Shown here one piece after another: positions 12,101-39,392 of a stretch of DNA of 52,318 nucleotides; the first letter of the stretch is position 1; every line of letters begins with the position of its first letter. Source of the DNA: Candidatus Magnetaquicoccus inordinatus (lineage in GTDB: Bacteria > Pseudomonadota > Magnetococcia > Magnetococcales > Magnetaquicoccaceae); the NCBI RefSeq assembly GCF_004217665.1, contig NZ_RXIU01000006.1, positions 1-52,318 on the forward strand, read 5' to 3'. The translations under genes were made by a program, and so were the position numbers. The notes under the pieces were generated by a model that did no database searches, was not told the DNA's origin, and saw only the letters and a program-made list of their open reading frames with translations.

Positions 12101-12743
12101 GGCCGTCTCCATCCATCGGAGGTTTCTCCTCGCCTTCCATCGGTGGCTGGCCGTCTCCATCCATCGGTGGCTGGCCGTCTCCATCCATCGGTGGCTGGCC
12201 GTCTCCATCCATCGGCGGCTTCTCCTCGCCTTCCACCTGTGGCTGGCCTTCTCCATCCATCGGAGGCGGTGGCGCGTCACCATCTACCGGAGGTGGCGGT
12301 GCTGTCATATCTCCAGCAGGTGGTGGGGGAGGAGGCGCATCTCCATCAACAGGTGGAGGCGGTGGAATATCGGAAAATTCATCTGCTGGTGGCGGTGGAA
12401 TATCGGAAAACTCATCAGCCGGAGGGGGAATATAAGCCTCCTCGCCAATTGGTTGCACATCGACAGGCTCTCCTCCCTCATACGGCAGGGGGGTATCCAT
12501 CCCCTCAGGAGGTGGGGGCAACTCCTCACCAGTTTCCATCGGCGGCATATCTACACCCTCGCCGACTGGAGGCGGCGGCACACCGAGATCTTGGCCAGAA
12601 GAGCTACCCAAATCTTCTCCCGCTACCGGAATATCAGCAGCCACTGAGGCCAAATCACCACCAATCATGGCCGGGGCAATACGATCTTCCAATTGCTCCA
12701 CTTTACCAGAAACAACTTTTTTCTTATCTTTGTCTTTAGACAC
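9117..12743 (-). CDS. Giant repetitive secreted/surface protein with LEDRIAP leader
   Basis: A 1208-residue acidic protein starting at a GTG preceded by AAGGAG at seven bases. Residues 1-25 are a lysine-rich leader followed by KVEQLEDRIAPA, with no hydrophobic signal peptide. Residues about 55-160 are proline-rich, 160-335 are 22 tandem eight-residue PPM(D/E)G-type units, and about 345-1208 are nine-residue units of the form xA(D/Q)G(S/N)x(S/G)x(W/Y/F). The nine-residue part includes about three copies of a longer super-repeat, the last with cysteines. A DG turn every nine residues suggests an extended beta-solenoid, loosely like RTX beta-rolls but with a different consensus. Its neighbours encode HlyD, TolC and M50 proteins, so it is probably their export client and perhaps an adhesin. 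No catalytic domain is visible. Confidence 0.85.
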   Translation of the reverse strand: MSKDKDKKKVVSGKVEQLEDRIAPAMIGGDLASVAADIPVAGEDLGSSSGQDLGVPPPPVGEGVDMPPMETGEELPPPPEGMDTPLPYEGGEPVDVQPIGEEAYIPPPADEFSDIPPPPADEFSDIPPPPPVDGDAPPPPPPAGDMTAPPPPVDGDAPPPPMDGEGQPQVEGEEKPPMDGDGQPPMDGDGQPPMDGDGQPPMEGEEKPPMDGDGQPPMEGEEKPPMDGEGQPPMDGDGKPPMEGEEKPPMDGEGQPPMEGEEKPPMDGEGQPPMDGDGKPPMDGEGQPPMDGDGKPPMDGDGKPPMEGEEKPPMDGDGQSPMDGDGKPPMDGEVPPSVESDSVSETQYTNNPDGSGSWSDDQGNSSVWNADGSGSSNFADGSSSSWDGQGNGTYNGADGSTYSWSADGSSSWNDGQGNSGSWNADGSGHWSTEDGSSGYHNADGSGGYTMADGSQGNWNADGSGSWHDAEGNSSSWDEQGNGSWSNADGSSGTWSADGSGSITHADGSVESWSGAEVTYTVDGENYSPEDYEKGEFTNADGSTDQFNPDGSSSHTDPEGNEYSYKPDGSGSIESADGDKESWDAQGNYSYEGSDGETATYEQDGSTTYDDGKGNTGWEDGEGNGGWTADDGSWGQFNSDGSTDYGDGEGGGGWSDGKDESGWYDDAGNSGGTDGEVTWTQGDDDSGSFSDGKFSASWDGEGEGQWQDAETGQSGTFDGEDGSGSITYPNGVVEEWNSEGEYTYTDPANPDAEQEPVGSYEEPGQYPQPDGSVDTVNEDGSSSHTDENGNTYTYNADGSTATTYADGSVETVAADGTYQWQGADGGSYTVSPDGSGSWNDGQGNSSVWNADGSGSSSYADGSSYGWDAEGNATWAGADGAQSTWGADGSGSWTDAEGNSAAWGADGSYSYHGADGTSTVYNADGSGSFHDASGNSSTWNADGSGSTSYADGSSSTWDGQGNGSMTYADGSTSTWNADGSGSWSDAQGNTSTWNADGSGSWSSVDGTNGVFNADGSGSMTYADGSTSAWDGQGNWNYTDADGGTCDQESCETGSFTNADGTTDQFNEDGTSFSTDSDGNSYAYAEDGSCTTTYADGSVETVGADGSYEWYGADGSSSVLNADGSGYSNGADGSSSSWDAEGNGTWTGADGSSGSWNADGSGTYNGADGSIGVYNADGSGIFTAADGTSYSWQADGTGTTTHADGTVEQWS
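9120..11700 (-). repeat. 27-bp degenerate coding repeat array (nine-residue units)
   Basis: About 90 degenerate units of nine codons fill the C-terminal two thirds of the giant protein. Each unit centres on DG or QG followed by Ser/Asn and usually an aromatic residue. The strict nine-residue spacing is visible where the text reads NADGSGSWSDAQGNTSTW. Three longer blocks (EVTYTVDG, EYTYTDPA and NWNYTDAD regions) break the array at roughly even distances and resemble each other, giving a higher-order repeat of roughly 250-300 residues. Confidence 0.8.
11739..12266 (-). repeat. 24-bp tandem repeat, 22 units, coding
   Basis: An uninterrupted array of 22 units of 24 bases, each coding for eight residues such as PPMDGDGQ, PPMDGEGK or PPMEGEEK. 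The three variants are shuffled rather than ordered, as expected from unequal crossing-over or replication slippage. Unit length is a multiple of three, so length changes keep the reading frame. A variable-number tandem repeat inside the proline-rich stalk is likely. Confidence 0.9.
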
Positions 12744-13117: not shown

Positions 13118-13420
13118 TCATGATCCATTGAGAAACAACACTCCCACACCACTCTCCACCACACGGACAATGCGGCAAGCCATGGTTAAGCGTTCACCGT
13201 GCAACTCTTCTACCATATAGCCGTTTGCACCTGCCAAAGAGGAATCCACTTGCCCAATGTCCATAGCCATGAAAAAACCGGTTGCATTCAAGTTGGTTGC
13301 CTGTCCAGAAACAACTCTGCCATCATCCAGATGCAGAACCACATCCTTGTCATAGGGTACACGGATCATCCGTACCCGACGCACCGCAGAGTCATCCGTT
13401 TCCTTTTCAATCTCACTCAT
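13118..13420 (-). CDS. PilZ-like domain protein
   Basis: A 100-residue single-domain protein resembling PilZ, the common cyclic-di-GMP receptor fold. An arginine-rich RRVRMIR segment at residues 14-20 stands where the RxxxR motif is expected, and NLNATG stands where (D/N)xSxxG is expected. Both are imperfect: the arginine spacing is off and Asn replaces Ser. Binding of c-di-GMP is therefore plausible but not assured. The start overlaps the last codons of the TolC-like gene by eight bases, so it belongs to the secretion operon. By analogy with c-di-GMP control of other giant adhesins, it may regulate export or surface retention of the repeat protein. Confidence 0.65.
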   Translation of the reverse strand: MSEIEKETDDSAVRRVRMIRVPYDKDVVLHLDDGRVVSGQATNLNATGFFMAMDIGQVDSSLAGANGYMVEELHGERLTMACRIVRVVESGVGVLFLNGS

Positions 13421-14867
13421 ATGTCCTCTCCAAATCTTCTGGTCCTTTGCCTGCTGCCAAATCCAAAGCAGCCATGGCTGTCAGATATGCGGCCAATGCC
13501 GAGGTATAGGTATTACGGGTAGTTGTCAAGAGATCCAGGGCATTAAGCACATCGGTGGCTGTACCCAACTGCTCGCGATAACGCAACTGATTGACACGAT
13601 AGTTTTCCTCGGCTTGCTGCAGAGATTTTTTGACCACTTCCAAACGTAGAGCCGATTCTTGCGCCGTCAAAAATGCCTTGCGTGTCTCCAGTAGCACAGT
13701 CTGCAATAGATCATCGTAAGTAATGCGATTTTTGTTGGTTGTGGCCTTGGCGGCAGAAACCTCTTGAGCCGTCTGCCCCCAGTTCCAGGCTGTCCAGTTC
13801 ATCGTCAATAATGCTGTGGTTTTACTGTCTCGATCACGATAATCTGCCTCCTGTGCATTCCAGTTATAGGCAAGAGAAAAATCCATCGTCGGAGAGGTGG
13901 CTGCTGCTGTACTCTTTTCAGTCAATTCACCCACTTCCACATCCAATTTAGCTTTTTCCAAATCTTTTCTGTGTATTTTGGCATGCGCATAGGCATCTTC
14001 GAGTGTCCACGGCAGCTTTTCCCATGCCAGCTCACCATTGGTTTCCAGAGAATGGTTCAAAGAGCGACGCATCAACCGATTCAACTCAGAACGGGCCAAC
14101 TCTACCTGATTTTGCGCAGTAATCAGAGCTTGCTCACCTTGGGCAACCCGCACATTGGCCTGTAACACCTCATTGCGCCACATTCGCCCCTCCCGAAAAA
14201 ATGAACGAGCATTGTTTTCCAGTTGACGCAGTCTGACTAAGGTATCCTCAGCCTCTTTCAACAACAGCTTTTTTTCCAATAAAGAGTACCAAGCTGTTTT
14301 TACATCCTTGATCAAAGTACGAGCGGTATGCAACAGATCCAAACGCGCTTGCGTCTCCTGCAATTCTGCTGATTTCCAATTATTCCACAGCGCTCCACCT
14401 TTATAAATAGGCTGGGTCATGGTGACGGTGGTATCATAAGTGATACCATCCGTGCCCCCGGTATTGCGCATAATGTCAGATCGTTTACTGATCAAGCTCA
14501 TTGTGGGCAGCATTTTTCGGAAGGAAGCAGATGCGGTTAACTGCTTGTTCTGCAATTGCAACTCTTTTGAAACCAAACCCAGATTGTCACGCAAAGCAAT
14601 CGCCAAAATCTCCTCCAGTGTCATGGCATCTTGATTGGCCATTCCACGCATCGCAGATCCCTCACCCTTTGCTGCAACAGGGATCGCTTGTTGTACACTC
14701 TGCCTTTCCGATGCAGAACTCTCCGAAACCTCATCCGTCAATAAAGCCTGCATATTTTCTGCAATAATACTATCTGCCCCAGATTCATGTAGCGCATTTG
14801 CATAGAGTGATGTGCTCTGCCATGCAGCCAACAGCATGACACTGCACCAGCCAATAACCGATTTCAT
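13413..14867 (-). CDS. TolC-family outer-membrane efflux protein
   Basis: A 484-residue outer-membrane channel protein. ATG 14867 is chosen because AGGAGG lies six bases upstream and it gives a standard Sec signal peptide (MKSVIGWCSVMLLAAW...). The mature part shows two OEP repeats: TLEEILAIALRDNLGL near residue 90, and a second TolC-type helical repeat with LEDAYAHAKIHRKDLEKAKLDVEV. Long coiled helices and YKGGALWNNWKSAELQETQA are typical of the family. No lipobox is present, unlike the NodT-type channel at 828. Its start overlaps the HlyD stop by four bases and its end overlaps the PilZ-like gene. It is the probable exit channel for the secretion locus. Confidence 0.9.
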   Translation of the reverse strand: MKSVIGWCSVMLLAAWQSTSLYANALHESGADSIIAENMQALLTDEVSESSASERQSVQQAIPVAAKGEGSAMRGMANQDAMTLEEILAIALRDNLGLVSKELQLQNKQLTASASFRKMLPTMSLISKRSDIMRNTGGTDGITYDTTVTMTQPIYKGGALWNNWKSAELQETQARLDLLHTARTLIKDVKTAWYSLLEKKLLLKEAEDTLVRLRQLENNARSFFREGRMWRNEVLQANVRVAQGEQALITAQNQVELARSELNRLMRRSLNHSLETNGELAWEKLPWTLEDAYAHAKIHRKDLEKAKLDVEVGELTEKSTAAATSPTMDFSLAYNWNAQEADYRDRDSKTTALLTMNWTAWNWGQTAQEVSAAKATTNKNRITYDDLLQTVLLETRKAFLTAQESALRLEVVKKSLQQAEENYRVNQLRYREQLGTATDVLNALDLLTTTRNTYTSALAAYLTAMAALDLAAGKGPEDLERTYE

Positions 14868-15697
14868 GGTTTTCCTCCTGGCTGACTCACCTTCCATCGT
14901 TCCAAGGTCACATAACGCCCGGTCATCAATTGGCCAGGATTAGGGATAATCCGCCACATCACCCGACGCAAGCCACTGGCCGCATCTACCAGAGGCAAAA
15001 TAGTCCGCGCCTTGGCTGTACCAACCCGCTGACCTTCAAGCAAAACTGCGGTCTCCATACCAACCTGCAATCCAGAGAGTGAGTCAGGAGGTACATCCAT
15101 ACTGACTTCCAATTGGCTCATATCCACCAATTCCAAAACCGGGGCTCCCGCTCCGATCCACTCTCCCAAATGTGCTGTCACCTTGGCCACTACTCCATCA
15201 AACGGAGCCAACATTTTAGTCCCTTCCACAGCCAAACGGGCAGCCTCCCTTTCGGCCTTTCCCTGATCAACACCTATCCGTCCCTGAATGATCGCAAACT
15301 CGCCCTCTTTCAACGCCATATCAGCCAACACATTTTCCGCATACAAACGCTTGTTCTTTTCCTGTGCATGGACCGCTTGTTGCAATTTTAGCTGTGCATT
15401 GGCAAGTGCAGCATCGGCCTTCGCCAACTGTTGCAGTACAACTGCATCGTCAATGCGAGCCAACAGCATACCTTTTTTTACCTCCGCACCCTCCAATGGT
15501 ATGGAGACAACCACACCCGACTGGGTAAAACCCAGTTTGGATTGACTGACCGGCAATACCACCCCCCGTAAATGGATAGTCGCATCACCATTTTCTGCCG
15601 CTCTCGCACTGACTGTTGACCCAAACAACATGATACCTGCCAAGGCCATGAATACTACCCGCTGCGTGCATCGCCTCTGTTGTAATGGTCTATCCAT
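14864..15697 (-). CDS. Periplasmic adaptor (HlyD/RND membrane-fusion family)
   Basis: A 277-residue membrane-fusion protein, small for the family. ATG 15697 has AGGAGG ten bases upstream; further in-frame GTG starts up to 15727 are possible. A Sec signal or signal anchor (VVFMALAGIMLFGSTVSARA) is followed by the lipoyl-like barrel (residues about 50-80, VSIPLEGAEVKKGMLLARID), a short helical hairpin (about 80-145), the second barrel half (MLAPFDGVVAKVTAHLGEWI) and a beta-barrel. It overlaps the TolC-like gene by four bases. In this operon it would be a periplasmic connector between the inner-membrane HlyD fusions and TolC. Confidence 0.88.
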   Translation of the reverse strand: MDRPLQQRRCTQRVVFMALAGIMLFGSTVSARAAENGDATIHLRGVVLPVSQSKLGFTQSGVVVSIPLEGAEVKKGMLLARIDDAVVLQQLAKADAALANAQLKLQQAVHAQEKNKRLYAENVLADMALKEGEFAIIQGRIGVDQGKAEREAARLAVEGTKMLAPFDGVVAKVTAHLGEWIGAGAPVLELVDMSQLEVSMDVPPDSLSGLQVGMETAVLLEGQRVGTAKARTILPLVDAASGLRRVMWRIIPNPGQLMTGRYVTLERWKVSQPGGKP

Positions 15698-15760: not shown

Positions 15761-17836
15761 TCAAATCCATAAATCTGTGCGAAATGTTGTCCGCAAAGGA
15801 CGCAAAAGATGTGCCCATAATGGCGCCGACTCCCCTTCAATCTTGACACTTCCTGTCGTATCCAACAGTGGAGGAGTCACGCCTTCTGGAATGATCATAT
15901 CGATACGTACCTGGAAAAGACGATTGGGACCATCTTTTTTGGTCACCGGGGTAATACTCTGTACCAGTCCAGAAAAGATTCTTTCTGGAGATCCACTCAA
16001 ACGAATACGCGCGGGATCACCCTCACGCACCACGGAAAGATCCGACTGGGCGAGCAAGACATTGATCCGTCTTTGCCGCAACGGCACAAGACTTATCACT
16101 GTTTCGCCTCGAGCAACATAACGACCACGCATTACCTGTGGTGGTGGTGCTTCCACTTGCCACTCGCCTGGTGGTATCAAAACCGACATCTGACCCCTGC
16201 GCCCCTGCAATCCCGATAGCTGCTCCTGCATTTTGTTGATTTGAAGGGCCACCTGCAACAGTTTGGCCCGATCACTCTGCACCAAAGCGCTATTGCGCTT
16301 GATCTCCATCCCTTCCAACTGGGCTTGGGTCCGGCCCATTTCCAACTCCAACTCAGGAGAAACCACAGTAAACAGACTCTCCCCCGCCTTGCCGATCAAC
16401 AAACGATTCTCCTGGTAGGCAATCTGCTCAATAAAACCACTCTCTGGAGCATGCACAGCCACTATATCGGCGTCCACCATACCAGTAGTCAACACCAGAA
16501 TACGTGGCTGCCAAGCAAACAAAGCCCATACCAGCAACAGGCCAAAAACAGACGAATATACACGCCGTTGCGGGGTGGAAAACATTTTTGTCATGATCCA
16601 CTCCTTCAAGGTTGCCACCCAACTTCCAGTCATCAATTTTGCCAACTTAAAAACAAGCAACAAAAAAATCAGAATGCCCCAGAAACCATAGATATCAGCA
16701 ACAGCACCATATCCCAATAGAGCCAAACCACCCAACATGATGGTCAGATACACGACAATCAACAATCCATAATAAAAATAGATCTTCTTCTCCCGATGAT
16801 CCACGTCAAAGGGTGGTGGCACATCCAAATGCAACAGATGTTTCTTCAAGGAGAAAGAAAACCAGTCGATGGCATTTTGCCGCAGATTGGGTATTTCCAA
16901 ATGATCGCTCAGTATATAATAACCATCAAACTTCATAAGCGGATTCAAGTTCAGAAACAGAGAGGAAGCGGTGGCAACAGTTACCAGAATGAATGAAATC
17001 CGTCCTATAAAAGAGTCCACATCGGTCATGGTCCAAATAAAGACGGCAAAGGCACACAAAATCAGTTCCACCCAAACCCCAGCCAATGCCACATACAATT
17101 TATGACGATTATTCTCAAACAACCAAGCATCGTTGACATTGGCATATAAACAGGGTTGAAAGGCCAACAACAGCACACCCATGTCATCCACGTCACCACC
17201 AAAATGACGACATGTTAAACCGTGGCCCATTTCATGAACCGCAATGGCACTGAGAATGATCAACCACACGGTCAGCGCATTCTCTCCACTTTGCTGCGAA
17301 AAGAAAAACACCCTCTCAAAATCGGCAGTAAAACGATCCCACTGTAGCAAAACCACAGCAACTGCTACTGCTATCAACACTATCGAAGCATACACACCTT
17401 GCGGCGTCCACAACCAACGCAGATAGGGAAGCACCCGGTCCAGAGTGAGGCTGGGATCATGCAAATGAAAGCGCATATTCAATAAAGATCCCTTGGCCTG
17501 CAAAAAACGTCCTTTTCTCTGGGCCCGCAATTTTTCTAAAAAGGCTGCTTTCTCCTCCTCTTGTGTGCGCTGTAACAGTTGGAAATCCTTTGCCGAACGA
17601 ATTAAATCCAGCAAAGCCTCCTTGTCATACGCATACTCTTCGCTGGCCTCATCAAACGCCTCCAACAAAGCATCCAGATCCTTTTGACCATCAAACAGGG
17701 TCAACATCAGATATTGCGCTTCACTGAAACGGTAATATGCCTGTTTGTCGGGCTCTTTAATTACATATGTAATTTCATTCCGCTGAACCAAACGGCGAAT
17801 TTTTAATACATCACGCAAAGGGGCTGGAGCTGCCAT
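15761..17836 (-). CDS. PqqD-like domain / M50 site-2-protease / HlyD fusion protein
   Basis: A 691-residue inner-membrane protein with three parts. Residues about 8-95 resemble a PqqD-like winged-helix domain (YYRFSEAQYLMLTLFDG pattern). Residues about 140-430 are a polytopic M50 metalloprotease with zinc ligands and catalytic glutamate in HEMGH (H201, E202, H205) and the second motif NPLMKFDG (D304). Residues about 435-690 are a HlyD-like periplasmic part with a coiled hairpin and barrel halves. ATG 17836 is chosen over an upstream frame start at 17866 because AGGAG precedes it and the previous gene stops two bases earlier. All M50 catalytic residues are present, so cleavage is plausible; the substrate is inferred to be the repeat protein. 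Related M50-HlyD fusions occur near peptide or protein export genes. Confidence 0.85.
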   Translation of the reverse strand: MAAPAPLRDVLKIRRLVQRNEITYVIKEPDKQAYYRFSEAQYLMLTLFDGQKDLDALLEAFDEASEEYAYDKEALLDLIRSAKDFQLLQRTQEEEKAAFLEKLRAQRKGRFLQAKGSLLNMRFHLHDPSLTLDRVLPYLRWLWTPQGVYASIVLIAVAVAVVLLQWDRFTADFERVFFFSQQSGENALTVWLIILSAIAVHEMGHGLTCRHFGGDVDDMGVLLLAFQPCLYANVNDAWLFENNRHKLYVALAGVWVELILCAFAVFIWTMTDVDSFIGRISFILVTVATASSLFLNLNPLMKFDGYYILSDHLEIPNLRQNAIDWFSFSLKKHLLHLDVPPPFDVDHREKKIYFYYGLLIVVYLTIMLGGLALLGYGAVADIYGFWGILIFLLLVFKLAKLMTGSWVATLKEWIMTKMFSTPQRRVYSSVFGLLLVWALFAWQPRILVLTTGMVDADIVAVHAPESGFIEQIAYQENRLLIGKAGESLFTVVSPELELEMGRTQAQLEGMEIKRNSALVQSDRAKLLQVALQINKMQEQLSGLQGRRGQMSVLIPPGEWQVEAPPPQVMRGRYVARGETVISLVPLRQRRINVLLAQSDLSVVREGDPARIRLSGSPERIFSGLVQSITPVTKKDGPNRLFQVRIDMIIPEGVTPPLLDTTGSVKIEGESAPLWAHLLRPLRTTFRTDLWI

Positions 17837-17838
17837 GC

Positions 17839-20400
17839 TTAACTCCTGGCAATCCAGAAAGACCAAAGATTAACTACCCTTCGCCAAAAGCGCGTCATGA
17901 CCGATACCTCAGGAGTGCTGATAGATGCTCGACCTGTCATGCCAGGCAACAAAGGCACATCCTTCTCCAATACCCGCACCTCAGCAATAAACCCCTCTGC
18001 TTGCGTTTTGTCGGTCACCCCTTTTTCCAAAGCCTCGGTCGGAACAGTATAGGCACGACCCACATGGAGCACTTCACCACGAAATCCTTGTCCAGGACGG
18101 GATTTCAAAACACCATGAACGGATTGTCCGCTACGCACATCGCTCACATCCTCTTCAGGAAGCTGGATCACCACAGTAAAATTATCGGGATTGGCAATGC
18201 GCAAGATTTCATTGCCCAATCCCAGTTCACGACCAACCAGTTCTTCAGTACGTGCGGTGAGAATAACGCCCGAGAGAGGGGCGCGAATCTCCACCTGTTC
18301 CATATCCAATTTTGCTTGTTCCCATGCTGCCTTGGCAGCCAAACGGTCGATGAGCGCCCGACTCAGAGCCGATGCATCTGAAGCAGCCTTGGCCTCGATA
18401 ATTTGCCGATCCAACAGCGCCAATTTGGTTTCTGCTTCCACTAAACGCAACCGAATGGGCATCTCGTCAATCTTGGCCAACACATCCCCGGCTTGAACTT
18501 GATCCCCCTCTTTTACCAGTGTCTTTTGAATGCGACCTGCCACCCGCAGATAGACCCCTTGTCCAAAACGGGAATCCACAACGCAATCACCGCTGACCGA
18601 ACGAAAGATCGGCAAATGATGTAATCCAGTCGCTATTGCTGTACCTGCCAAAAGCAACGCTACCCGTTTCCGCCAACCTACTGCCCATTTTTTTCCGCTG
18701 TCCCCCAAACGACTCATTACGGAAGAGAAAGGGATACGTTTGAAAAGACTAGCATTGCGCAGCGCAACCGTAATCTGTGTTGCCAGAATGGAGATCATGT
18801 CCGATTTTGTACCACTGGCAAAATGTTTGCGGTCGCTTTCCAACCATAACACCCCCAGTATCCCCTCTGTGTCAGCCAAAGGCATCGACCAAGCGGCAAC
18901 CGAACCGCGTTGTGCTAAAAACTCTGTCCAAGGCGTCTCTTTTCCTTGTTGCTCCCGTAAAGCCATAAGATCGGGAATATAACTCAAACGTTTAGCCTGT
19001 CGAACCTGCTCCAGCAATGCCAAGAGAGCACTCTGCCAAGAGACACTGGCATCCACCTTTACTCCACCAGAAAGCATCGCCAAAAACAGTGCATTGCTGG
19101 TTTCATCCACCAATGCAATTGCGGCGTGCGAGATCTCAGCCAACTCTCCAGAAAGCGTCACCGCCAGCAGCAACACCTCATCCATATCTACCGAAGCACT
19201 GATTTGCCGGGAGAGTTCCATTAAGGTGTTCATCTCCTTGACCCGGCTCTCGCTTTCCAACAAACGGGCATTGCGCACCGCTACGGAAGCCGACAAAGCC
19301 AAATCTTCAGCCAAACGTTGATCTTCTTCAGTAAAACGCTTTTGATAACCAGAGTGTTTATTGATAATCTGAATGGCCCCAAAAGCGGAACCTTGCTCGG
19401 AAAGAGGAACGCAAATCATCGATTCTGTTTTGAAGTTTGACCGCTTATCCACCTGCGCATCAAAACGACTATCCAAAGCACAATTGAGAACCACATCTGC
19501 TTTATTGGAAGATATGACTTGGCCCACAATGCCTTGCCCAAGTGGCAAACGCAACCCCAGAATGCGACCTTTGGCTGGACCCTCTGCCTGATGGCAAATA
19601 TTGGTTCCCGATCGTTCGTCAGTCAACCATAGGGAACCGGCTTCGGCATTCATGGTACTTAAAACTTTGGCAAAAATCTCTGTCATCACCTGCTTTAAGC
19701 CACCAGAACTTTGTACAAACTCACGGGTCAAATCCCGGGCAAACCGAAAATATTGCACCTCCCGCTGCATGGCGCTGACCTGCTCGGTTCGGTTATCGCT
19801 CTCTAACTGCTGTTGCCTGGCATTGCGGACAGCAATGGCAGCCGATAAGGCCAAATCTTCAACCAAGCGCAGATCATCTTCAGTAAACTGCTTTTGAATC
19901 CCGGATCGCTTGTTGATAATTTGCAGAGCCCCAAACGCAACCCCTTTATCGGCAAGGGGAATACAGATCATGGACTCTGTTTTGAAATGGGATTTTTGAT
20001 CGACATCGGCACTGAAACGGGCATCCTTTGCACAATCCAACACCACATCCATTGTGTTTTTGGCAATTACTTGACCAACAATTCCCTGACCAAGTGGCAG
20101 GCGCAACCCCAAAATCTTGGCTTTTGCCGGCCCCTCTGCCTGATGACAGATATTGGTTTTAGTCGCCGCATCGGTAATCCACAATGATCCGGCTTCCGCA
20201 TCCATTGTCGTCAAGACTTTGGCGAAAACGGCGGACATCACCTTCTTCATCCCACCGCTACTTTGAACAAACTCTCTGGTCAGATCTCTGGAAAAGCGCA
20301 GATAACGCACCTCTCTTTGCAAATCATCCATCGAACCCATACCAGTAGATACAACAGCAGACTCACTAGACAGTATAGCAACTGGTGTCGAAACAGTCAT
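17839..20400 (-). CDS. Triple-GAF sensor fused to a HlyD-type adaptor
   Basis: An 853-residue protein. Residues 28-195 and 211-380 are two very similar GAF domains (184-residue offset, shared LGLRLPLGQGIVGQVI), each ending in NK...FTE(D/E)D, resembling the NKFDE motif of cyclic-nucleotide-binding GAFs. Residues about 390-550 are a diverged third GAF. A transmembrane helix at about 578-593 leads to a periplasmic HlyD-like domain (barrel half VKEGDQVQAGDVLAKID at about 629-645, helical hairpin, second half and beta-barrel to the end). It is the first gene of the secretion operon, two bases before the M50 fusion. The arrangement would let a cytoplasmic small molecule control a periplasmic conduit. 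The ligand is unknown. Confidence 0.85.
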   Translation of the reverse strand: MTVSTPVAILSSESAVVSTGMGSMDDLQREVRYLRFSRDLTREFVQSSGGMKKVMSAVFAKVLTTMDAEAGSLWITDAATKTNICHQAEGPAKAKILGLRLPLGQGIVGQVIAKNTMDVVLDCAKDARFSADVDQKSHFKTESMICIPLADKGVAFGALQIINKRSGIQKQFTEDDLRLVEDLALSAAIAVRNARQQQLESDNRTEQVSAMQREVQYFRFARDLTREFVQSSGGLKQVMTEIFAKVLSTMNAEAGSLWLTDERSGTNICHQAEGPAKGRILGLRLPLGQGIVGQVISSNKADVVLNCALDSRFDAQVDKRSNFKTESMICVPLSEQGSAFGAIQIINKHSGYQKRFTEEDQRLAEDLALSASVAVRNARLLESESRVKEMNTLMELSRQISASVDMDEVLLLAVTLSGELAEISHAAIALVDETSNALFLAMLSGGVKVDASVSWQSALLALLEQVRQAKRLSYIPDLMALREQQGKETPWTEFLAQRGSVAAWSMPLADTEGILGVLWLESDRKHFASGTKSDMISILATQITVALRNASLFKRIPFSSVMSRLGDSGKKWAVGWRKRVALLLAGTAIATGLHHLPIFRSVSGDCVVDSRFGQGVYLRVAGRIQKTLVKEGDQVQAGDVLAKIDEMPIRLRLVEAETKLALLDRQIIEAKAASDASALSRALIDRLAAKAAWEQAKLDMEQVEIRAPLSGVILTARTEELVGRELGLGNEILRIANPDNFTVVIQLPEEDVSDVRSGQSVHGVLKSRPGQGFRGEVLHVGRAYTVPTEALEKGVTDKTQAEGFIAEVRVLEKDVPLLPGMTGRASISTPEVSVMTRFWRRVVNLWSFWIARS

Positions 20401-23859: not shown

Positions 23860-24915
23860 TCACCGTGGTCCCTGCACCGCCACCTCGCGCACCAAACGAA
23901 AACTGCCATTGCCACGCGGACGATCATTGGGCCAGTCGCTATGAATGGCCGTGCAACGCAGATTGCGTGCCTCACTGCCCCAGGAACCACCGCGAAAAAC
24001 CCGTAAACCACTGCCCACATCCCGATTGACCGGATTGGGCAGTATCGCCTGCGGCGTAGCATAAAAATCATTGCTATAGGCATCTTCCACCCACTCCCAA
24101 CCATTGCCACTCATATCATGCAGACCCAAACCATTGGGACGCTTTTGACCTACCGGATGCGGATGCCGACCGCTGTTGCTTCGATACCAAGCCAAAGTCG
24201 CCAGATCCTCACCTCCAGCATACAGCTCCTCCTTGCCACCACTGCGACAGGCATACTCCCACTCGGCACTGCTGGGCAAACGATAGCGAACATTGTTGAT
24301 CAACTCATTCTTTTCAATAAATTGCTGCACATCCAGCCAGGAAACATTATCCACCGGATAGTTCTCGCCCAAGGCATAACGCGAGGGATTTTTACCCATC
24401 AACCGTTTCCACTCCCCTTGTGACACCTCATATTTGCCCAACCAAAATCCATCCACCCGTACCGTATGAGCTGGCGTCTCATCATCCCGACACTCACCAC
24501 TCCATGAACCACAACCCATTTGGAAAGTGCCTCCAGGAACCCAGACAAAAACAATCCCGGTCACCGGATCCTGCCACTCTTGCCCGGCGGCTGTACCATA
24601 TTCCATCATCACACCAAAACGGCTCTGCAACGCCTGCAACCGATAATTTTGCAGGCTTTTTACACAACTTATATCACAACAACGTTTACGCTCCGCCAAC
24701 CAGCTCTCCTGTTCTGCACGAATGGCGGCATCTCCCCTCTCCAAAATGCGTTGGTACAAATGGGTGATCGCCCTCTCTTGTGACAACAGCTCTGGATCCT
24801 GGCAGACCATCATTTCGGCAGCAACCAACGCCTGCTTGCAGTCACTCTCCTGCCCGCGAGCACTGCCCATTAAAACTCCCCAAAGCAGCCCTGCTACAAC
24901 CAGTAAACGAACCAT
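23860..24915 (-). CDS. LprI-like domain fused to a formylglycine-generating-enzyme (SUMF1) domain
   Basis: A 351-residue exported protein. ATG 24915 has GGAG seven bases upstream and opens a Sec signal peptide (to about residue 21). Residues about 25-95 match the LprI/DUF1311 lysozyme-inhibitor pattern with paired cysteines (SDCKQAL, MVCQDPELL, WLAERKRCC, CVKSLQ). Residues about 115-345 are a FGE-sulfatase/SUMF1 domain with VWVPGGTFQMGC, LGKYEVSQGEWKRLMG, YRLPSSAEWEYACR and FRGGSW. The usual GNVWEW is GNGWEW here, and the ending is GNGSFRLVR. Only one of the two active-site cysteines of true FGE seems present, so a binding or structural role, as in many bacterial SUMF1 proteins, is more likely than formylglycine formation. 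Confidence 0.88.
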   Translation of the reverse strand: MVRLLVVAGLLWGVLMGSARGQESDCKQALVAAEMMVCQDPELLSQERAITHLYQRILERGDAAIRAEQESWLAERKRCCDISCVKSLQNYRLQALQSRFGVMMEYGTAAGQEWQDPVTGIVFVWVPGGTFQMGCGSWSGECRDDETPAHTVRVDGFWLGKYEVSQGEWKRLMGKNPSRYALGENYPVDNVSWLDVQQFIEKNELINNVRYRLPSSAEWEYACRSGGKEELYAGGEDLATLAWYRSNSGRHPHPVGQKRPNGLGLHDMSGNGWEWVEDAYSNDFYATPQAILPNPVNRDVGSGLRVFRGGSWGSEARNLRCTAIHSDWPNDRPRGNGSFRLVREVAVQGPR

Positions 24916-27711: not shown

Positions 27712-30700
27712 TCACACCTGGGAAGAATAGAGTTGCAGTGTGGTAAAAGGGCGATTGTGCTGTACACTATCAGCAATCTGCTGCACCACTCGTAAAAAGG
27801 TCTGTTTGTCTATCGGTTTGGTCAAATGATCATTACAACCGGCAGAAAGGCTTTCCGCCCGTTTGGCCAACGAAGCATGGGCACTCAAAGCAATAATAAT
27901 GGCAGGAGTCACTCCCTGTTGCTTTTCCCACAGTCGAATCGCCTGCGTTGCTGCATAGCCATCCATCACCGGCATTTGGATATCCATCAAGATCAAATCA
28001 AAACGTTGCGTGCGCACCTTTTCCACCGCCTGCTGCCCATCCGCAACGATGGTCAAACGATGACCCGTGCTCTTCAAATAAATCCGAAACAGAGTCTGAT
28101 TGTCCAACCGATCCTCTGCCAACAAAATATCCAGAATGCGATTTCCTTGATCCAGTTGTCGATCCTGCTCCGACTGTGGAGACTGGGTTACAGGAAGAGG
28201 CTGAATCGGCAAAGAAAAAGAAAAGGTACTCCCCTCCCCCAAACGACTCTCGACACTGATCTGCCCCCCCATCATCTCCACCAGGCGGCGACAAATCGCC
28301 AAACCCAAACCGGTCCCCCCATAGCGACGAGTGATCCCGGAATCGGCTTGGGTAAATCGTTTAAAAATATGCTCCATATGTTCCGGGGCAATGCCGATCC
28401 CACTGTCACGCACCCGAAACATCAACTGATTCTCCTGCACCGGATCACGCAATACCTCAACTGTCACCCCACCCTCGTGGGTAAATTTGATGGCATTACC
28501 CAACAAATTGATCAAAATCTGCCGCACCCGGCCATCATCACCATACATCTGTTCAGGAATATTTTTGGCAATCTCCTCCTGCAACACAATTTGACTGTTT
28601 TCAACCGCCATCCGCATCAAAGCTGTGGTCTCTTCCACAACCTGGCGCGGCGAATAGATCACCTCCGACAAAACAAAGCGACCGGACTCAATGCGCGAAA
28701 AATCCAAAACATCATTGATCACCCCCAACAACGCCTTCCCGGAACGGTGCATCATGCGCACCATCTCCCGCTGCTCCTCCTCCAAAGCACTTTCCAACAA
28801 CAGATCCGACATCCCCAAAACAACATTCATTGGCGTGCGAATCTCATGGCTCATCGCTGCCAGAAAATCTCCTTTGGCTTGATTGGCTGCTTCAGCTTGC
28901 TTTTTGGCTACCGCCAACTCGGCCACCGCCCGCACCCGCTTACTGATATCCATCGCCACCGTACACAGCGCATATGGCACCTCATCATCGGTCAACAGAG
29001 GAAAAGTAATCAATAAATAGGTGTGACGCTCTCCATCCGGGTGCAACAGCTCTTCCTCCGCCTGAACCGGCGCCAAGCGCGTCAAAGCCTGTTGATCCAT
29101 CTCCAGCAAACGCTGCACCACCTTCGGCGAATGGTGATCACGCAAATTCCAACCACTCTCCGCCACCTCTGAGACCGCAAAAATCCGTCCATATTGCCGA
29201 TTGACCTGCAATACATGTCCCTGCAAATCCTTCAACATTACCAGCAACGGCGTGTGGTTGAGAATATCCTTGAGTCGGCGTTCACTCTCGCGCAGCGATT
29301 TTTCCATCGCCTTGCGCAAAGAGATATCCTGTAAAGCGATGACAACCCCAGAAGGGGTCATCTCCGGTTGAATGGCGGTCACCAACCAGTGCACCGGCAC
29401 CTGTCTTTGGTCACGGGTAATCAACAACCCCTCATTTTCTCTCTGTTTACCGTCACGGATGGTCCGATCAATCGGCGAATCACCCTCTTCATAAGCGCTG
29501 CCATCCCAACGCCGACAGTGAAACAGCAAGTTGACAGGATTGCCGATCACCTCTTCCTGACGATAACCAGTCAATGACAAAGCCGCTGAATTGACAAAAA
29601 TACAGCGCCCCTCTGTATCCCCTCCCAACACCCCTTCACCCAAACTTTCCAGTAATATATTGCGCACCCCCAAACGTTTGGTCTCTGCCAATGCCCGCAG
29701 CAGCAGCTTTTTGCCGCGATGCAGACGCAAGGCCACCAACAAGGCAGTCACCAGCAAGGCCACCAACACCATAAGAATGATAAAAGTATATTTATCAAAT
29801 ATATCCTGCCAATCAAAATCAATCCGATCAGGATTGGCCCGCAAGCGCGTCATCACCGCCTCAACCGATTGATAATTGGCCGGCGGGGAAAAACCATAAT
29901 AGTGACCATCCTTGGCTGGCAAAGAGTCAGGAGTGATCTCCAGCAAGGCCAGCGTCACCTCCTTGACCAACGTGTCCGGCAAATCCGGCATGGCCGCAAA
30001 AGGCCATTCAGGATAGAGATCCGTGGATAACAGCAACGGAAATGTGCTTGGCCCCTGCATGTTGAGTATGCGAATCTCCTGCAGATCCAGTCGATTCTCC
30101 TGCAGCAAATTTTCTAAAATCCCGGTACGCACAAAGCCTGCATCCACCCGACGCGACAACACCTCCGGTACCACCTTGGCATGCGGCATTCCGGTATAGC
30201 GCATCGCCAACTCCCGGCCAGCATCCACTCCGGCCTTGCGCAAACTCCAGGCCTGCATCAAATATCCACCCAGCGAACGTTCATCTACGGCTGCAACTTT
30301 TTTGCCCTTTAGATCCGACAATTGCTGCAGATCATAACGATCCGAACGCACAAAAATGACCCCACCAAATTGGGTGACTGGATGCCCTTCCGCCACGGAC
30401 ATCAAAGTGACCATAGGGGTAATGTGTATGCGACTGCGCAACAGGATAAAATGTTCTGGATTGGTCAGGATAAAATCGACTTCGCCTCGTGCGGCAGCGC
30501 GATCCAAATCGGAAAAAAAGAAGGGGATAATCTGAAAATGTTTGCCAGGAATCCGGGCGGTTAACCATTCAGCCGTCGCAGACCAAAATGCCAACGTCTC
30601 TGCCGGAGTACGAAATGAGAGCACACCGATGCGTACCTCTTCCACTGCCCACAGTGTGTGAGGAAAAAAAAGGCTTGCCAGCAACCACAAGAAAAAAAAC

Positions 30701-30714
30701 AGACGACCAGCCAT
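27712..30714 (-). CDS. Hybrid histidine kinase with PhnD-like periplasmic sensor
   Basis: A 1000-residue hybrid kinase. After a signal peptide come a PhnD/TtrS-like solute-binding domain (about 25-290, VRIGVLSFRTP, VDFILTNPEHF, LKGKKVAAVDERSLGGYL), one transmembrane helix (about 308-330), two PAS domains (about 350-470 and 480-600), HisKA (AAMSHEIRTPMN), HATPase_c (LLGNAIKFTHEG, GGTGLGLAI) and a C-terminal receiver with ILMDIQMPVMDG. ATG 30714 is chosen for GGGGAG eight bases upstream. The sensor type in relatives binds small oxyanions such as tetrathionate or phosphonate-like ligands; the ligand here is unknown. The gene is followed at once by a second kinase and a regulator, implying a phosphorelay or two-kinase integration. 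Confidence 0.9.
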   Translation of the reverse strand: MAGRLFFFLWLLASLFFPHTLWAVEEVRIGVLSFRTPAETLAFWSATAEWLTARIPGKHFQIIPFFFSDLDRAAARGEVDFILTNPEHFILLRSRIHITPMVTLMSVAEGHPVTQFGGVIFVRSDRYDLQQLSDLKGKKVAAVDERSLGGYLMQAWSLRKAGVDAGRELAMRYTGMPHAKVVPEVLSRRVDAGFVRTGILENLLQENRLDLQEIRILNMQGPSTFPLLLSTDLYPEWPFAAMPDLPDTLVKEVTLALLEITPDSLPAKDGHYYGFSPPANYQSVEAVMTRLRANPDRIDFDWQDIFDKYTFIILMVLVALLVTALLVALRLHRGKKLLLRALAETKRLGVRNILLESLGEGVLGGDTEGRCIFVNSAALSLTGYRQEEVIGNPVNLLFHCRRWDGSAYEEGDSPIDRTIRDGKQRENEGLLITRDQRQVPVHWLVTAIQPEMTPSGVVIALQDISLRKAMEKSLRESERRLKDILNHTPLLVMLKDLQGHVLQVNRQYGRIFAVSEVAESGWNLRDHHSPKVVQRLLEMDQQALTRLAPVQAEEELLHPDGERHTYLLITFPLLTDDEVPYALCTVAMDISKRVRAVAELAVAKKQAEAANQAKGDFLAAMSHEIRTPMNVVLGMSDLLLESALEEEQREMVRMMHRSGKALLGVINDVLDFSRIESGRFVLSEVIYSPRQVVEETTALMRMAVENSQIVLQEEIAKNIPEQMYGDDGRVRQILINLLGNAIKFTHEGGVTVEVLRDPVQENQLMFRVRDSGIGIAPEHMEHIFKRFTQADSGITRRYGGTGLGLAICRRLVEMMGGQISVESRLGEGSTFSFSLPIQPLPVTQSPQSEQDRQLDQGNRILDILLAEDRLDNQTLFRIYLKSTGHRLTIVADGQQAVEKVRTQRFDLILMDIQMPVMDGYAATQAIRLWEKQQGVTPAIIIALSAHASLAKRAESLSAGCNDHLTKPIDKQTFLRVVQQIADSVQHNRPFTTLQLYSSQV

Positions 30715-30927
30715 TACCACTTCTCCCCATTGCCTGCAGCAGATGCCCACCCTGCAACCTCAACAAAATCAGGCTACCCACCTTGGCAATGGCAGCAGTT
30801 GGAAAAATGTCATTATCCGGTCATGCAGCATAACAAATCATCACAGACAAAGTAAATCGCCCCAACAGCATTTTCTGCCGAAAAGCAAAGAAAAACCTCT
30901 CCAATGTTTCAATAAGCACAATTATCA

Positions 30928-33213: not shown

Positions 33214-36200
33214 TTAAGAATTGTAAGTGGTCGGCTGCCGCCGTCCACGCACATACCAACGCAAACGATCCAGATAGAGATAGACCACCGGCGTGGTATA
33301 GAGGGTAAGCAGTTGACTCAATATCAAACCACCAACAATCGAGATCCCCAATGGAAAACGCATCTCCGAGCCCTCCCCCTGCCCCATGGTCAAGGGCAAG
33401 GCACCCAATAACGCCGCCATGGTGGTCATCAAAATAGGTCGCAGCCGCAACAAACAAGCCTGACGAATCGCCTCCAACGGAGAAACCTGCTGCTGGCGCT
33501 CTAAATCCAGTGCAAAATCAATCATCAAGATGGCATTTTTCTTGACAATACCAATCAACAATACCACACCAATCATCGCCATCAGATTAAACTCATTGCC
33601 ACTGATCATTAATGCCAACAAGGCGCCCACCCCCGCCGAAGGCAAGGTAGACAATATGGTCAATGGATGGATAAAACTCTCATACAACATGCCCAAGACG
33701 ATATAAACCGACAACAAAGCCGCCAAAATCAACCAAGGCTGACTCTCCAAAGAGGCTTGAAACACCTTGGCGGTGCCTTGAAACCCTCCTTGCACCGTGG
33801 TTCCCAAACGGGCAAAGCTCTCTTCAATGGCCTGGGTAGCCTGGGATAGACTGACTCCGCCAGCCAAATTGAAGGAGATGGTGGAAGCGGCAAACAAACC
33901 TTGATGGTTGACCGCCAACGGCGCCACACTTTGGCTGATCGTACTTATCGCACTCAATGGCACCTGCTGGCCACTGCTATTGGTAATGTGCAAAGTGTTC
34001 AGCGACTGTGGATCTTGCACAAAAGAGGGTGCAGCTTCCATCACCACCCGATATTGATTCAGAGGGGTATAGATGGTCGATACCAGACGCTGGCCATAGG
34101 CATCGTTCAAGGTCAGATCCATCAGACGCGGTGTCACCCCCTTGCGGGAGGCGTTGGCACGATCCAGTTGAATATATGTGGAAATACCTCGTTCATTCTG
34201 ATCACTCGACACATCCGCCAGTTGCGGCAACTCACTCAAAGCCTGACGAATCTTGGGCTCCCAAAAACGCAGCTCCTCCAAATCACTTGATTGTAATGTA
34301 TATTGATAGGTTCCACTCCCTTGGCGCCCCCCCACACGAATCTCCTGTGCCGGTTGCAGCATCATGGTGGATCCGGCCACCCGCGCCAATTGACCGCGTA
34401 AACGACCCATCACCTGCTCGATATTGCCCCGCTCCTGGCGCGGCTTCAGGCCAGCAAACATCACCCCACTGTTGCGCTGCCCCCCTCCGGTAAAGGCCAC
34501 CACATGTGCAACTGCCGGATCCTGACCAATAATCCGACTATACTCCTCCACCTTGTTGCGCATTGCCTGAAAAGAGATCCCCTGATCCCCTTGAATGGTG
34601 CCAATCAAACGAGCAATATCCTGCTGCGGAAAAAATCCTTTGGGAATGGTAATATACAGATAGACATTCAAGGCAATGGTGGCCAGCAAGACCAGCAAAG
34701 TCAAAAAAGGGTGTCGCAAGACGATGGCCAAAGTGCGTGCATAAAATGCCAAGACCGCCCCAAAAATGGCTCCATACTCGGATCGATTATCAGCGCCTGC
34801 CCCACTGTGCGCCCCCTTGGCGCGTAACAATCGGGCACACATCGCCGGAGTGGTGGTCAACGAAACCAGCAACGACACCAATACCGCTATACTCAAAGTC
34901 ACCGCAAATTCCCGAAACAACCGCCCGACAATCCCCCCCATGGCCAGAATGGGAATAAAAACCGCCACCAACGACACACTCATCGACAAAACTGTAAAGC
35001 CCACCTCGCGCACCCCCTGCAGCGTGGCCTGCATCGGGCTCATCCCCTTTTCCAAATAGCGGGAGACATTCTCTAAAACCACAATGGCATCATCGACCAC
35101 AAAACCGGTGGCAATGGTCAAGGCCATCAGCGACAAATTATCCAAGCTATAGCCAAACAGATACATAAAACCAAAGGTGCCCATCAAGGAAACCGGCACC
35201 GCGACCGTGGGAATCAATGCCGCCCGCACATTGCGCAAAAAGAGAAACACCACCAAAATCACCAGCACAATGGCCAACAACAACCCCTGTTCCACCTCTG
35301 CCAATGAAGCGCGAATGGTCGGGGTACGATCCATCAAGACTGTCAACTCGATGGAACTGGGAAGAATACTGTGCAACGACGGCACCAAATCACGAATTCG
35401 CCCAACCGTTTCGATGATATTGGCTCCCGGTTGACGCGAGATAATCAGCAACACCGCCGGCTTGCCATCTGCCATCCCGGCATTGCGCATATCCTGTACC
35501 GAATCCACCACCTCCGCCACATCAGCCAAACGCACCGGCGCCTGTTTGCGCCAAGTAATAATTATCGGACGATAATCTGCCGCCACCCGCGCTTGATCGT
35601 TGGCATCGAGACTCCATTGCCGCTCTCCTTGCTCGACAACACCTTTGGGGCGATTGGCATTGGTTGCGGCAATGGCACTGCGTACCTCCTCAAAACCAAT
35701 GCCGGCAGCGTGCAACTTTCCCGGATCCAGTTCGACTCGTACCGCCGGCAAAGAGCTCCCCCCCAAACTGACCTGCCCTACCCCTTGCACCTGTGCCAAC
35801 TTTTGCGCCAGTACGGTGGCCGCCACATCATACATCTCCCCCTGGCTCTTACTCTCCGAGGTCAAGGAGAGTACCATGATCGGCATATCCGCCGGATTGA
35901 CTTTGCGGAAGCTGGGGTTGGAAGGAAGGTTGGGCGGCAAAAGGGCGCGAGCGGCATTGATGGCCGCCTGCACATCGCGTGCTGCCCCATCAATATTTCG
36001 GCTTAAATCAAATTGCAGAATAATTCGGGTACTGCCCAAAGTGCTTTGTGAGGTAATTTCACTCAACCCGGCAATACGTCCTAAAGTACGCTCCAAAGGG
36101 GTAGCCACAATGGCCGCCATGGTCTCTGGACTGGCTCCTGGCAATCCCGCCGACACCGATATGGTCGGAAAATCAACCTGTGGCAGTGGCGCCACCGGCA

Positions 36201-36294
36201 ACAAACGAAACCCCAACCAGCCCGCCAACAAAATGGCCATAGTCAACAAAGAGGTGGCCACCGGTCGCTGCACAAACAGTACCGAAGGGTTCAC
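33214..36294 (-). CDS. mdtC: RND multidrug efflux subunit, MdtC-like
   Basis: A 1026-residue RND transporter. GTG 36294 overlaps the mdtB stop in a GTGA junction with GGAG eight bases before it, and gives the family N terminus [21 protein letters not shown]. The proton-relay aspartates D401 and D402 lie in [12 protein letters not shown]. Two large periplasmic loops and the signatures [23 protein letters not shown] and [19 protein letters not shown] match the MdtB/MdtC subfamily. In characterised systems MdtB and MdtC form a B2C heterotrimer, which fits the tandem gene pair here. Confidence 0.93.
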
Positions 36295-39200
36295 TGCAGC
36301 GACTCCCTGAAGACAAAATTGGCTTGCCGCCACCTGTGCAGTCGCTCCGCCCAGGCAGCAAAAGTCAGATAAATCACCGGTGTGGTAAATAAAGTGACCA
36401 GTTGACTGAGCAACAATCCTCCCACCATGGTCACTCCCAACGGTTGCCGCAACTCTGAACCGGCTCCCCCGCCTAACATCAACGGCAAAGCGGCAAACAG
36501 GGCGGACAAAGTGGTCATCAAAATGGGCCGAAAACGCAACAGACAGGCTTGATAAATCGCCTCTCTGGCTGTCAAGCCCCTCTGTCGCTGCGCCTGCAAA
36601 GCAAAATCAATGATCAAAATAGCATTTTTTTTGACTATTCCGATCAAAAGAACAATCCCGATAATCGCCGTAATTCCCAACTCCATATCGGCCAGCAGCA
36701 AGGCCAGCAAAGCCCCCACACCAGCCGAAGGCAGCGTGGAAAGAATGGTCACCGGATGAATATAGCTTTCATAGAGCACCCCCAAGACAATATACATGGT
36801 GACAATGGCCGCCAGTATCAACCACAGCTCATTGGCCAACGCCACCCGAAAGGCATGGGCAGCCCCCAAAAAGGTGATCTGGATATGCGCCGGCACAGCG
36901 ATCTCTTCTCGGACCGCCTCAATAGCCTGCACCGCGGCCCCCAAAGAGGAGTCTGCAGCCACATTAAAAGAGAGACTGACGGCAGGAAATTGACCCTGCC
37001 GCTGCAACACCAAGGGTGCCAAACGCTCTTCAACACGCGCCACAGCACTCAAGGGAACCAAAGAGCCATTGGCCGCTGTGACTCGCAAACCATCCAGCAT
37101 CGCCAGCCCCTGTTGCGCCCCCCCTTTGGCCTCCAAAACCACGCGATATTGATTGGCTTGGGTAAAAACGGTAGAGATCAAACGTTGGCCAAAGGCATCA
37201 TACAATGCGTTATCAATCGCTGCCGCAGTCACCCCCAAACGGCCCGCAGCATCGCGATCAATCACCAGATAGGCCTGCAACCCCTCCTCTTGTTGATCAC
37301 TGGTGACATCGCGTAATGCCGGCTCCTGCGACAGACGCTCCAACAAGCGCGGCGTCCACAGCGCCAGATCCTCCTGGCTTGGCGATTCCAAAGTAAACTG
37401 ATAACGGGTACGGCTGATTCGCTCTTCGATGGTTAAATCCTGAACCGGTTGCAGATAGAGCATAACCCCCGGCACTTGCGCCACACGCTGCTGCAATCGC
37501 GCCAACACAGTTGCCAACGACTCCCCCTGACGCTCTGCCCGTGCATGCAGAGCAATCAAAAAACGGCCACTGTTGAGCGTGATATTGGTGCCATCCACTC
37601 CGATATGGCTGGTCAACCCCTTCACTGCGGGATCGGCCAACAACTGACGGCTCAACTGCTGGTGAAAATCGGCCATGGCTGCAAACGAGCTCGCAGCGGG
37701 TGCCTGACTGATTCCTTGCAACAAACCGCTATCCTCTTGCGGAAAAAAGCCTTTGGGAATGATCACCGCCAACCATACTGTCAACAGCAAAGTTGCCACA
37801 GCCAGCAACAGGGTACTTTTCTGATGATCCAGAACCCAGCCCAACCAGCGACCATAACCGGTAATGATCCGTTGACTCCACACTCCCTGCCCAGCAGACT
37901 CTGACTCAGCCACACCCTTCTCTAACAGCCGTGCGCACATCATCGGTGTCAAGGTCAACGACACCAAAGCGGAAATCAATATGGCCACAGCCAGGGTAAT
38001 GGCAAATTCCCGAAACAGACGTCCCACCACATCTGCCATAAAAAGCAATGGAATCAACACCGCAATCAGCGAAAAGGTCAGCGAGACAATCGTGAAGGCG
38101 ATCTCCCGCGAACCATCCAAAGCCGCCTGCAGAGGTGACTTGCCCTCTTCACGATGGCGGGAGATATTTTCGATTACCACAATGGCATCATCAACCACAA
38201 ACCCACTGGCAATGGTCAAAGCCATCAATGTCAGATTATTGATGGAAAAATCGGCCAAATACATCAGCGCAAAGGTGCCAATCAAGGACAAGGGCACAGC
38301 AATGCCCGGAATCACAGTAGCCTTAATATTGCGCAAAAACAGCAATATAACCATCACCACCAAGGCCACCGCCAACAGCAACTCAAATTGTACATCACTG
38401 ACCGCCGCCCGAATCGTCAAGGTGCGATCACTGGCCTCCAGCAGATCCACACTGCCCGGCAACGACGCCCGCAAACGTGGCAACAGCTCTTTCACCCGAT
38501 CTGCCACCTGGATGACATTGGCACCCGGTTGCCGCTGTATCTGGAGAATAATGGCTGGTTCCAAACCAGACCAGGCGGCCAAACGGCTGTTTTCCGCCCC
38601 CTCTATCACTTCGGCAACATCCTGCAGATGAATCGCTGCCCCGTTGCGATAGGCTATGACAATCTGCGCAAACTCCTGGGCCGATTTGATCTGATCATTG
38701 GCATCTATAGTGCTCGCCCGGCTGGGACCATCAAAACTGCCTTTGGGTTGATTGACGTTGGCATTGGCAATAGCCAGTCGCAACTCTTCCCAACCCATCC
38801 CATAAGCAGCCAGCGCCGAAGGATTGACCTGCACCCGCAAAGCGGGGCGTTGACCACCGCTCAACGTCACCAAACCGACCCCTGAGAGTTGCGAAATCTT
38901 TTGTGCCACCCGTGTCTCCACCAGATCCTGCACCCGAGGCAGCGGCAAAGTACGAGAGGTTACCGCCAAGGTGAGAATCGGTGCATCCGCCGGATTGACC
39001 TTGTAATAAATGGGTGGCGCTGGCAGATCAGTGGGCAACAGATTGGCGGCAGCATTTATCGCCGCCTGCACCTGTTGCTCGGCCACATCCAACGTCAGAT
39101 GCAAACTGAATTGTAAAGTAATCAGGGAGGAGCCCCCCGAACTGGTCGAAGAGAGACGATTCAAACCAGGCATCTGTCCAAATTGCCGCTCCAACGGTGC

Positions 39201-39392
39201 AGTAATCGAGGAGGCAATCACCTCTGGACTAGCCCCCGGATAGAGGGTAATCACCTGCACCGTGGGATAATCCACCTCCGGCAAGGCCGATAACGGCAAC
39301 AAACGAAAGGCCAAAAGACCGGCTAAAAAGATGGCGGCCATCAACAAAGTGGTCGCCACCGGCCGCAAAATAAACAAACGCGAAGGATTCAT
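36291..39392 (-). CDS. mdtB: RND multidrug efflux subunit, MdtB-like
   Basis: A 1033-residue RND transporter starting [18 protein letters not shown]. The proton-relay pair D401 and D402 lies in [12 protein letters not shown]. It shares with the downstream gene the conserved motifs [20 protein letters not shown] and [19 protein letters not shown], so the two are paralogous subunits. It begins three bases after mdtA ends. The order mdtA-mdtB-mdtC is that of enterobacteria; which of the two RND genes is B and which is C is assigned by position and overall likeness. Confidence 0.93.

Follow-up and report, generated by a model that had tools for sequence, protein, structure and literature searches.

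We report that an operon of Candidatus Magnetaquicoccus inordinatus probably encodes a dedicated apparatus for the export and processing of proteins that carry an N-terminal, non-hydrophobic signal of the LExR type. The operon lies in the window, by which we mean the whole stretch of DNA analyzed (52,318 nt; GCF_004217665.1, contig NZ_RXIU01000006.1, positions 1 to 52,318). Its central gene encodes a chain in which an RRE/PqqD-like domain, an M50 protease and a HlyD adaptor domain are joined. The link between this family of M50-HlyD proteins and LExR-tagged clients is strong, and the RRE-M50-HlyD protein is the best candidate so far for the machine that recognizes the tag.

The plus strand at 15761-17836 is closed by many stops, and its reverse complement forms a single open frame (coordinates of all features are given in the table). 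The ATG at 17836 is directly preceded by AGGAG, no ribosome-binding site stands before an upstream TTG, and orthologs align from the ATG, which bears out the start given in a preliminary description of this DNA. The three-domain architecture proposed there holds as well: all three domains are supported independently by sequence profiles and by predicted fold. The chain belongs to a widespread, poorly named family that ranges over Magnetococcales, Planctomycetota, Verrucomicrobiota, and gamma- and alphaproteobacteria and has several paralogs in the window's own genome; in NCBIfam, no model naming M50-HlyD or SecA-like proteins was passed at its cut-off.

Features of the export operon in the window
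Feature	Coordinates	Strand	Evidence
GAF–HlyD adaptor, 853 aa, upstream operon gene	17839..20400	-	Pfam GAF in 3 stretches and HlyD_D23
RRE/PqqD–M50–HlyD protein, 691 aa	15761..17836	-	open frame, domain profiles, model, AGGAG start
N-terminal RRE/PqqD-like winged-helix domain (residues 5-84)	17585..17824	-	AF2, Foldseek, profile against PDB
HExxH zinc motif (residues 201-205)	17222..17236	-	H201, E202, H205 invariant in 64 members
NPLMKFDGYY motif, third zinc ligand D304 (residues 298-307)	16916..16945	-	alignment of 64 members
HlyD/membrane-fusion adaptor domain with alpha-hairpin (residues 445-670)	15827..16504	-	PF16576/PF13437; Foldseek MacA, MexA
HlyD/RND_mfp adaptor	14864..15697	-	TIGR01730 124.9 bits, above cut-off; ATG with AGGAGG
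TolC-type outer-membrane channel (OEP)	13413..14867	-	PF02321 1.2e-45; AGGAGG start
Small PilZ-like protein, 100 aa, likely c-di-GMP receptor	13118..13420	-	PilZ 19.4 bits, below 22.5 cut-off
Repeat surface protein, proposed client, 1208 aa	9117..12743	-	GTG start with AAGGAG; same neighbor in Magnetococcales relatives
LEDRIAPAM export-signal motif of client	12666..12692	-	pattern search within order; LExR signal table

At the N terminus, Pfam PqqD gave no match to the query by itself; among 64 relatives, 16 match PF05402 (PqqD; best 6.5e-8), and its cut-off is passed by the N-terminal domain of a paralog from the same genome. When the domain profile was compared with PDB sequences, the top four of 177,635 were TfuB1, TbiB1, PqqD and PqqCD (E 0.005-0.058). 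Modeled alone with AlphaFold2 (AF2), residues 5-84 (pLDDT 91, pTM 0.81) form a three-stranded sheet and a winged-helix trio, with three strands and three helices in the order found in PqqD. In a Foldseek search of the PDB, ranks 1-5 went to leader-bound TbiB1 (prob 1.00, TM 0.59-0.71, E 0.006-0.035), rank 7 to PqqD and ranks 6, 8 and 10 to the RRE-bearing sactipeptide enzyme entries 5wgg and 5why; the E-values, from 0.006 upward, are modest, as a domain of this small size would lead one to expect. This ranking is consistent and agrees with the independent PDB profile search and with the Pfam hits in relatives. Profile and structure comparison with PqqD/RRE folds has returned TbiB1 and PqqD, and the PqqD-type winged helix described earlier is recovered by profile search, Foldseek and family scan alike. 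The domain is less conserved than the rest of the chain, only R4 of its profile reaching 90%.

By its sequence, the M50 domain has an intact active site with every motif in place, and proteolysis is predicted. In all 64 relatives H201, E202, H205, N296, N298, D304, D311 and N317-L318 are unchanged, upholding the zinc site of H201-E202-H205 and D304 that had been read from the DNA. As in M50 proteases, HExxH sits on a membrane helix (184-211) of the full-chain AlphaFold2 model (mean pLDDT 87, built on an alignment of 64 relatives), and an NxxPxxxxDG motif with the third zinc ligand is present: N296/N298 and D304-G305 are invariant, and within NPLMKFDGYY the residues N298 and M301-Y307 are invariant while P299 and L300 are conserved in at least 90% of the 64 members. 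PF02163 scores 28.2 bits in the query against a cut-off of 27.2 and is matched by 63 of the 64 relatives. In the C-terminal part, the lipoyl, barrel and hairpin fold of a HlyD/MFP adaptor is seen both in the Pfam matches (PF16576/PF13437) and in Foldseek matches of the model to MacA and MexA (E down to 2e-12), confirming the adaptor previously assigned to this region.

The operon runs on one strand in the order GAF-HlyD, RRE-M50-HlyD, HlyD, TolC, PilZ-like protein and repeat protein, bounded upstream by a divergent gene at 21214. Close Magnetococcales relatives keep this order, and the GAF-HlyD gene is syntenic in relatives. A Pfam domain scan found no ABC, RND or MFS pump within the operon; an Rfam scan of the window gave no match, and promoter-scan hits were no more frequent than in shuffles. 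The PilZ-like gene suggests c-di-GMP control of the export unit, and the cut-off of 22.5 is passed by orthologs of its product at L009 (22.6) and L012 (25.9). Relatives also keep this gene between TolC and the client. Elsewhere in the window, on the minus strand, are genes for an FGE-sulfatase-domain protein (23860-24915), a hybrid histidine kinase with a phosphonate-binding periplasmic domain (27712-30750) and two AcrB-type pumps (33214-39392).

The repeat protein opens with VSKDKDKKKVVSGKVEQLEDRIAPAMIGG, where V is the GTG start; its N terminus reads ...VEQLEDRIAPAM, and its signal stretch is KVEQLEDRIAPAM. This start is a variant form of LExRxLLA, the export signal of planctomycetes and of LEPR-XLL proteins. 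In the body of the protein, NADGSGSW-type repeats with a Pfam Tcp10_C match come after a spacer rich in proline (PPMDGDG repeats). Of 48 genomes of the order, 8 have the LEDRIAPAM pattern, and the reversed pattern, run as a control, gave 0; in 6 of these 8 the signal lies on the same contig as a P0001 ortholog. Signals at related loci are LEDRIAPA in Magnetococcales, LEPRIMLS in Neptunomonas/Neptuniibacter, LEPRIAPA in two neighboring proteins of a Chthoniobacter-like verrucomicrobium, and, in planctomycetes, LENRILMS and LEPRILLS among others; several belong to the NCBIfam LEPR-XLL domain, and all resemble RRLxxExLExRxLLA. Aligning 47 signals, two or three of which (from short frames) are doubtful, gives the consensus basic stretch, hydrophobic-E, LExR, [IVTM], [ALM], [LPF], [ASD], [AGM]. 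No hydrophobic signal peptide was found in the region checked of any genuine client, the sole exception being a spurious frame of L119. The LEPR-XLL model NF012209 (cut-off 17) matched neither the window client nor any protein in genomes with LExRx[MLA]FD[GA]A clients; it is passed by the clients of the same-genome paralogs at C9 and C223, and the window's own genome holds clients of all three signal classes (IAPA, LLS, FDGA).

RRLxxExLExRxLLA, the planctomycete signal, was reportedly put forward in 2004 as likely to direct export. It is already regarded as a signal for export: in Tuwongella immobilis it is present in 8 of the 10 longest proteins, and of the 20 carriers detected, 8 were found only in the SDS fraction (PMC8567305). 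Among the genomes surveyed here, LEPR-XLL open frames of 19,427 and 14,920 codons (G061:C115:112865-; G006:C1:2731726-) are very large for bacteria.

The signal and the M50-HlyD gene occur together. Among 200 genomes drawn from the window's phylum, 33 had LEPR-XLL above cut-off, and all 33 contained a full-length M50-HlyD gene (E below 1e-100 among the matches listed). Outside the window's order, the gene was present in 13/13 LEPR-XLL genomes vs 30/152 overall (p ~ 5e-11, the genomes of one genus not being independent), and a second sample of 190 genomes gave 2/2. LEPR giants of thousands of codons directly adjoin M50 genes. At 10 of 13 M50-HlyD loci from LEPR-XLL-negative genomes, a large protein whose LExR signal is divergent (mostly LE[PQA]Rx[MLA]FD[GA]A) is adjacent or near; at the remaining three, large frames are cut by the stretch end, one of these loci holding what we take to be a DUF4347-like sequence, as in other clients. 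Near the N terminus of large frames at M50 loci the motif was found 36 times, against 0.48 in shuffles, which rules out chance occurrence. A client is visible at 28 of 59 M50 loci over 15 kb, and many loci, above all on short planctomycete contigs, have none in view. The repeat protein was well chosen as a partner in the preliminary description: its LEDRIAPA stretch is one form of a signal that spans phyla and is linked genetically to the M50-HlyD family. On the M50 tree, the three signal classes change 4 times vs 16.9 when shuffled, which agrees with recognition and also with plain joint inheritance of whole operons. For two LEDRIAPAM proteins (G057:C26:35105, L154; G133:C220:3942, L155), the sequence read around them holds no M50-HlyD gene, and a single apparatus may therefore serve several clients at unlinked loci.

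Of 35 well-flanked M50 loci, 30 have HlyD neighbors and 17 have SecA-like genes. In 25 genomes, 13 of 14 short SecAs adjoin a listed M50-HlyD gene, the neighbor of the fourteenth being outside the count. Four short SecAs that were tested retain the DEAD domain, the preprotein-binding domain and part of the P-loop domains and lack SecA_SW (wing/scaffold) and SEC-C, both of which the same genome's housekeeping SecA possesses. These paralogs of ~640-760 aa occur almost only beside M50-HlyD (for instance L083:8239-10398, L024:12120-14045 and L131:7048-9045). At the same-genome paralog loci G000:C9 (L083) and G000:C223 (L084, L127), a reduced SecA directly follows M50-HlyD; G000:C223 also has a client frame of 7,312 codons and a gene for a two-partner (ShlB-type) porin. 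The window operon contains no dedicated SecA, genome G041, with a window-type locus, has housekeeping SecA only, and FDGA-type loci have no SecA-like gene. SecA was accordingly rejected as a general partner for the window type, a dedicated SecA being absent from the window operon and from G041. Type I secretion was likewise rejected, with no ABC in the window operon and Walker A plus an LSGGQ signature at only 1 of 73 M50 loci.

We propose that the signal would be bound by RRE and cut by M50 and that the client would pass through HlyD–TolC. On the strength of its fold and the genetic linkage, the cytoplasmic RRE/PqqD domain may capture the client signal as RRE domains capture RiPP leaders. The client N terminus would then be passed to the M50 membrane domain and, given the invariant active site, cut at or just after the motif. 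As their families and co-location suggest, the periplasmic HlyD part, GAF-HlyD and the second HlyD would dock on TolC, yielding a duct across the envelope through which the repeat protein, still unfolded, would reach the cell surface. The preliminary description had combined recognition, proteolysis and conduit in one chain; the domains are indeed joined there, but the conduit would also need GAF-HlyD, the second HlyD and TolC. In one large branch of the family, the reduced SecA ATPase probably supplies the push. Window- and FDGA-type loci are without it, so housekeeping SecA or another force would have to serve them, and this missing motor in the window branch is the main hole in the mechanism. 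More tentatively, and with considerable doubt, one can envisage an undescribed trans-envelope secretion system, handling LExR-tagged clients as long as many thousands of residues, in which RRE–M50–HlyD would combine the roles of signal receptor, signal peptidase and inner-membrane gate; in the branch that has it, the SecA stripped of its wing/scaffold would bypass SecYEG and drive clients through this gate directly to TolC or a two-partner-type porin.

A strictly conserved active site would suit an enzyme engaged in maturation only, with clients crossing the inner membrane otherwise and M50-HlyD trimming the signal before handing them to TolC or retaining them at the surface, much as an anchored processing peptidase would. 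A dedicated motor is missing from many loci, among them that of the window, as this reading would have it, but client N termini offer no hydrophobic signal usable by Sec, and the N-terminal RRE-type domain and the SecA-like motors at about half of the well-flanked loci fit an export entry; we consider it unlikely. M50 proteases are classically regulatory, and the GAF domains and PilZ-like protein of the operon would be at home in an envelope sensor, where HlyD would sense secretion status, a site-2-type M50 protease would release a regulator, and the GAF and PilZ proteins would set expression of an otherwise ordinary export pump. Such a role seems improbable to us: no sigma/anti-sigma gene was found among the neighbors examined, the operon lacks the inner-membrane pump of an ordinary exporter, and the RRE fold and the LExR linkage would be left unexplained.

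The lower conservation of the RRE domain, finally, might mark it as a structural relic or dimerization module, with SecA or HlyD reading the signal and M50 serving as a membrane scaffold only. Yet M50 keeps its catalytic residues unchanged over several phyla, and window-like loci have no accessory SecA, which therefore cannot be the general signal reader; we judge this explanation very improbable.

Since 2004, LExRxLLA/LEPR-XLL has been viewed as a novel signal for export. Some of the largest proteins in bacteria carry it, and it has no known reader. Tying it to one gene family that unites a leader-binding fold, an intact intramembrane protease and an adaptor makes the question directly testable and would connect protein secretion with leader recognition of the RiPP type. 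The reduced SecA found next to many M50-HlyD genes suggests that a Sec motor has been recruited to a new gate. Every part belongs to a known family, and the architecture is visible by domain scan. Our search of the open-licence literature turned up no machine that couples an intramembrane protease with a leader-binding fold and an adaptor, and none that recognizes the LExR/LEPR-XLL signal, although a closed-access report may describe one. We know of no M50 protease that acts as a secretion entry point.

The N terminus shares its fold with the leader-binding domains of TbiB1 and PqqD, and its best structural matches are RRE–leader complexes; unlike in those proteins, the domain here shares one chain with a membrane protease and an export adaptor, and its leader binding is putative. 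The best NCBIfam match is the daptide intramembrane metalloprotease NF041824 (184 bits, below its cut-off of 300 bits; E 4.5e-54, residues 31-421 of the 701-aa frame), which spans part of the N-terminal region and the M50 core. This model of 379 positions has no HlyD part, and the clients of daptide systems are peptides, whereas those proposed for M50-HlyD are large surface proteins. The adaptor has the alpha-hairpin fold of HlyD, MacA and MexA, and the window operon includes a TolC gene; such adaptors usually partner ABC, RND or MFS pumps, but here the adaptor is fused to a protease. The client signals are like those of LEPR-XLL (PF07595, NF012209), with LExR-x-[ALM]-[LPF]-[ASD], which was previously known as a motif alone. 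HlyD plus TolC and huge repeat substrates recall type I secretion, which has an ABC motor where the window operon has none, and the LExR signal is N-terminal. In many M50-HlyD relatives, a dedicated SecA paralog for selected surface proteins recalls accessory Sec (SecA2), although the motor here is without wing/scaffold and SEC-C and the window operon has none. Since it dispenses with the type I ABC and, in the window, with the SecA of accessory Sec, we rate this apparatus, with its predicted function, as a new kind.
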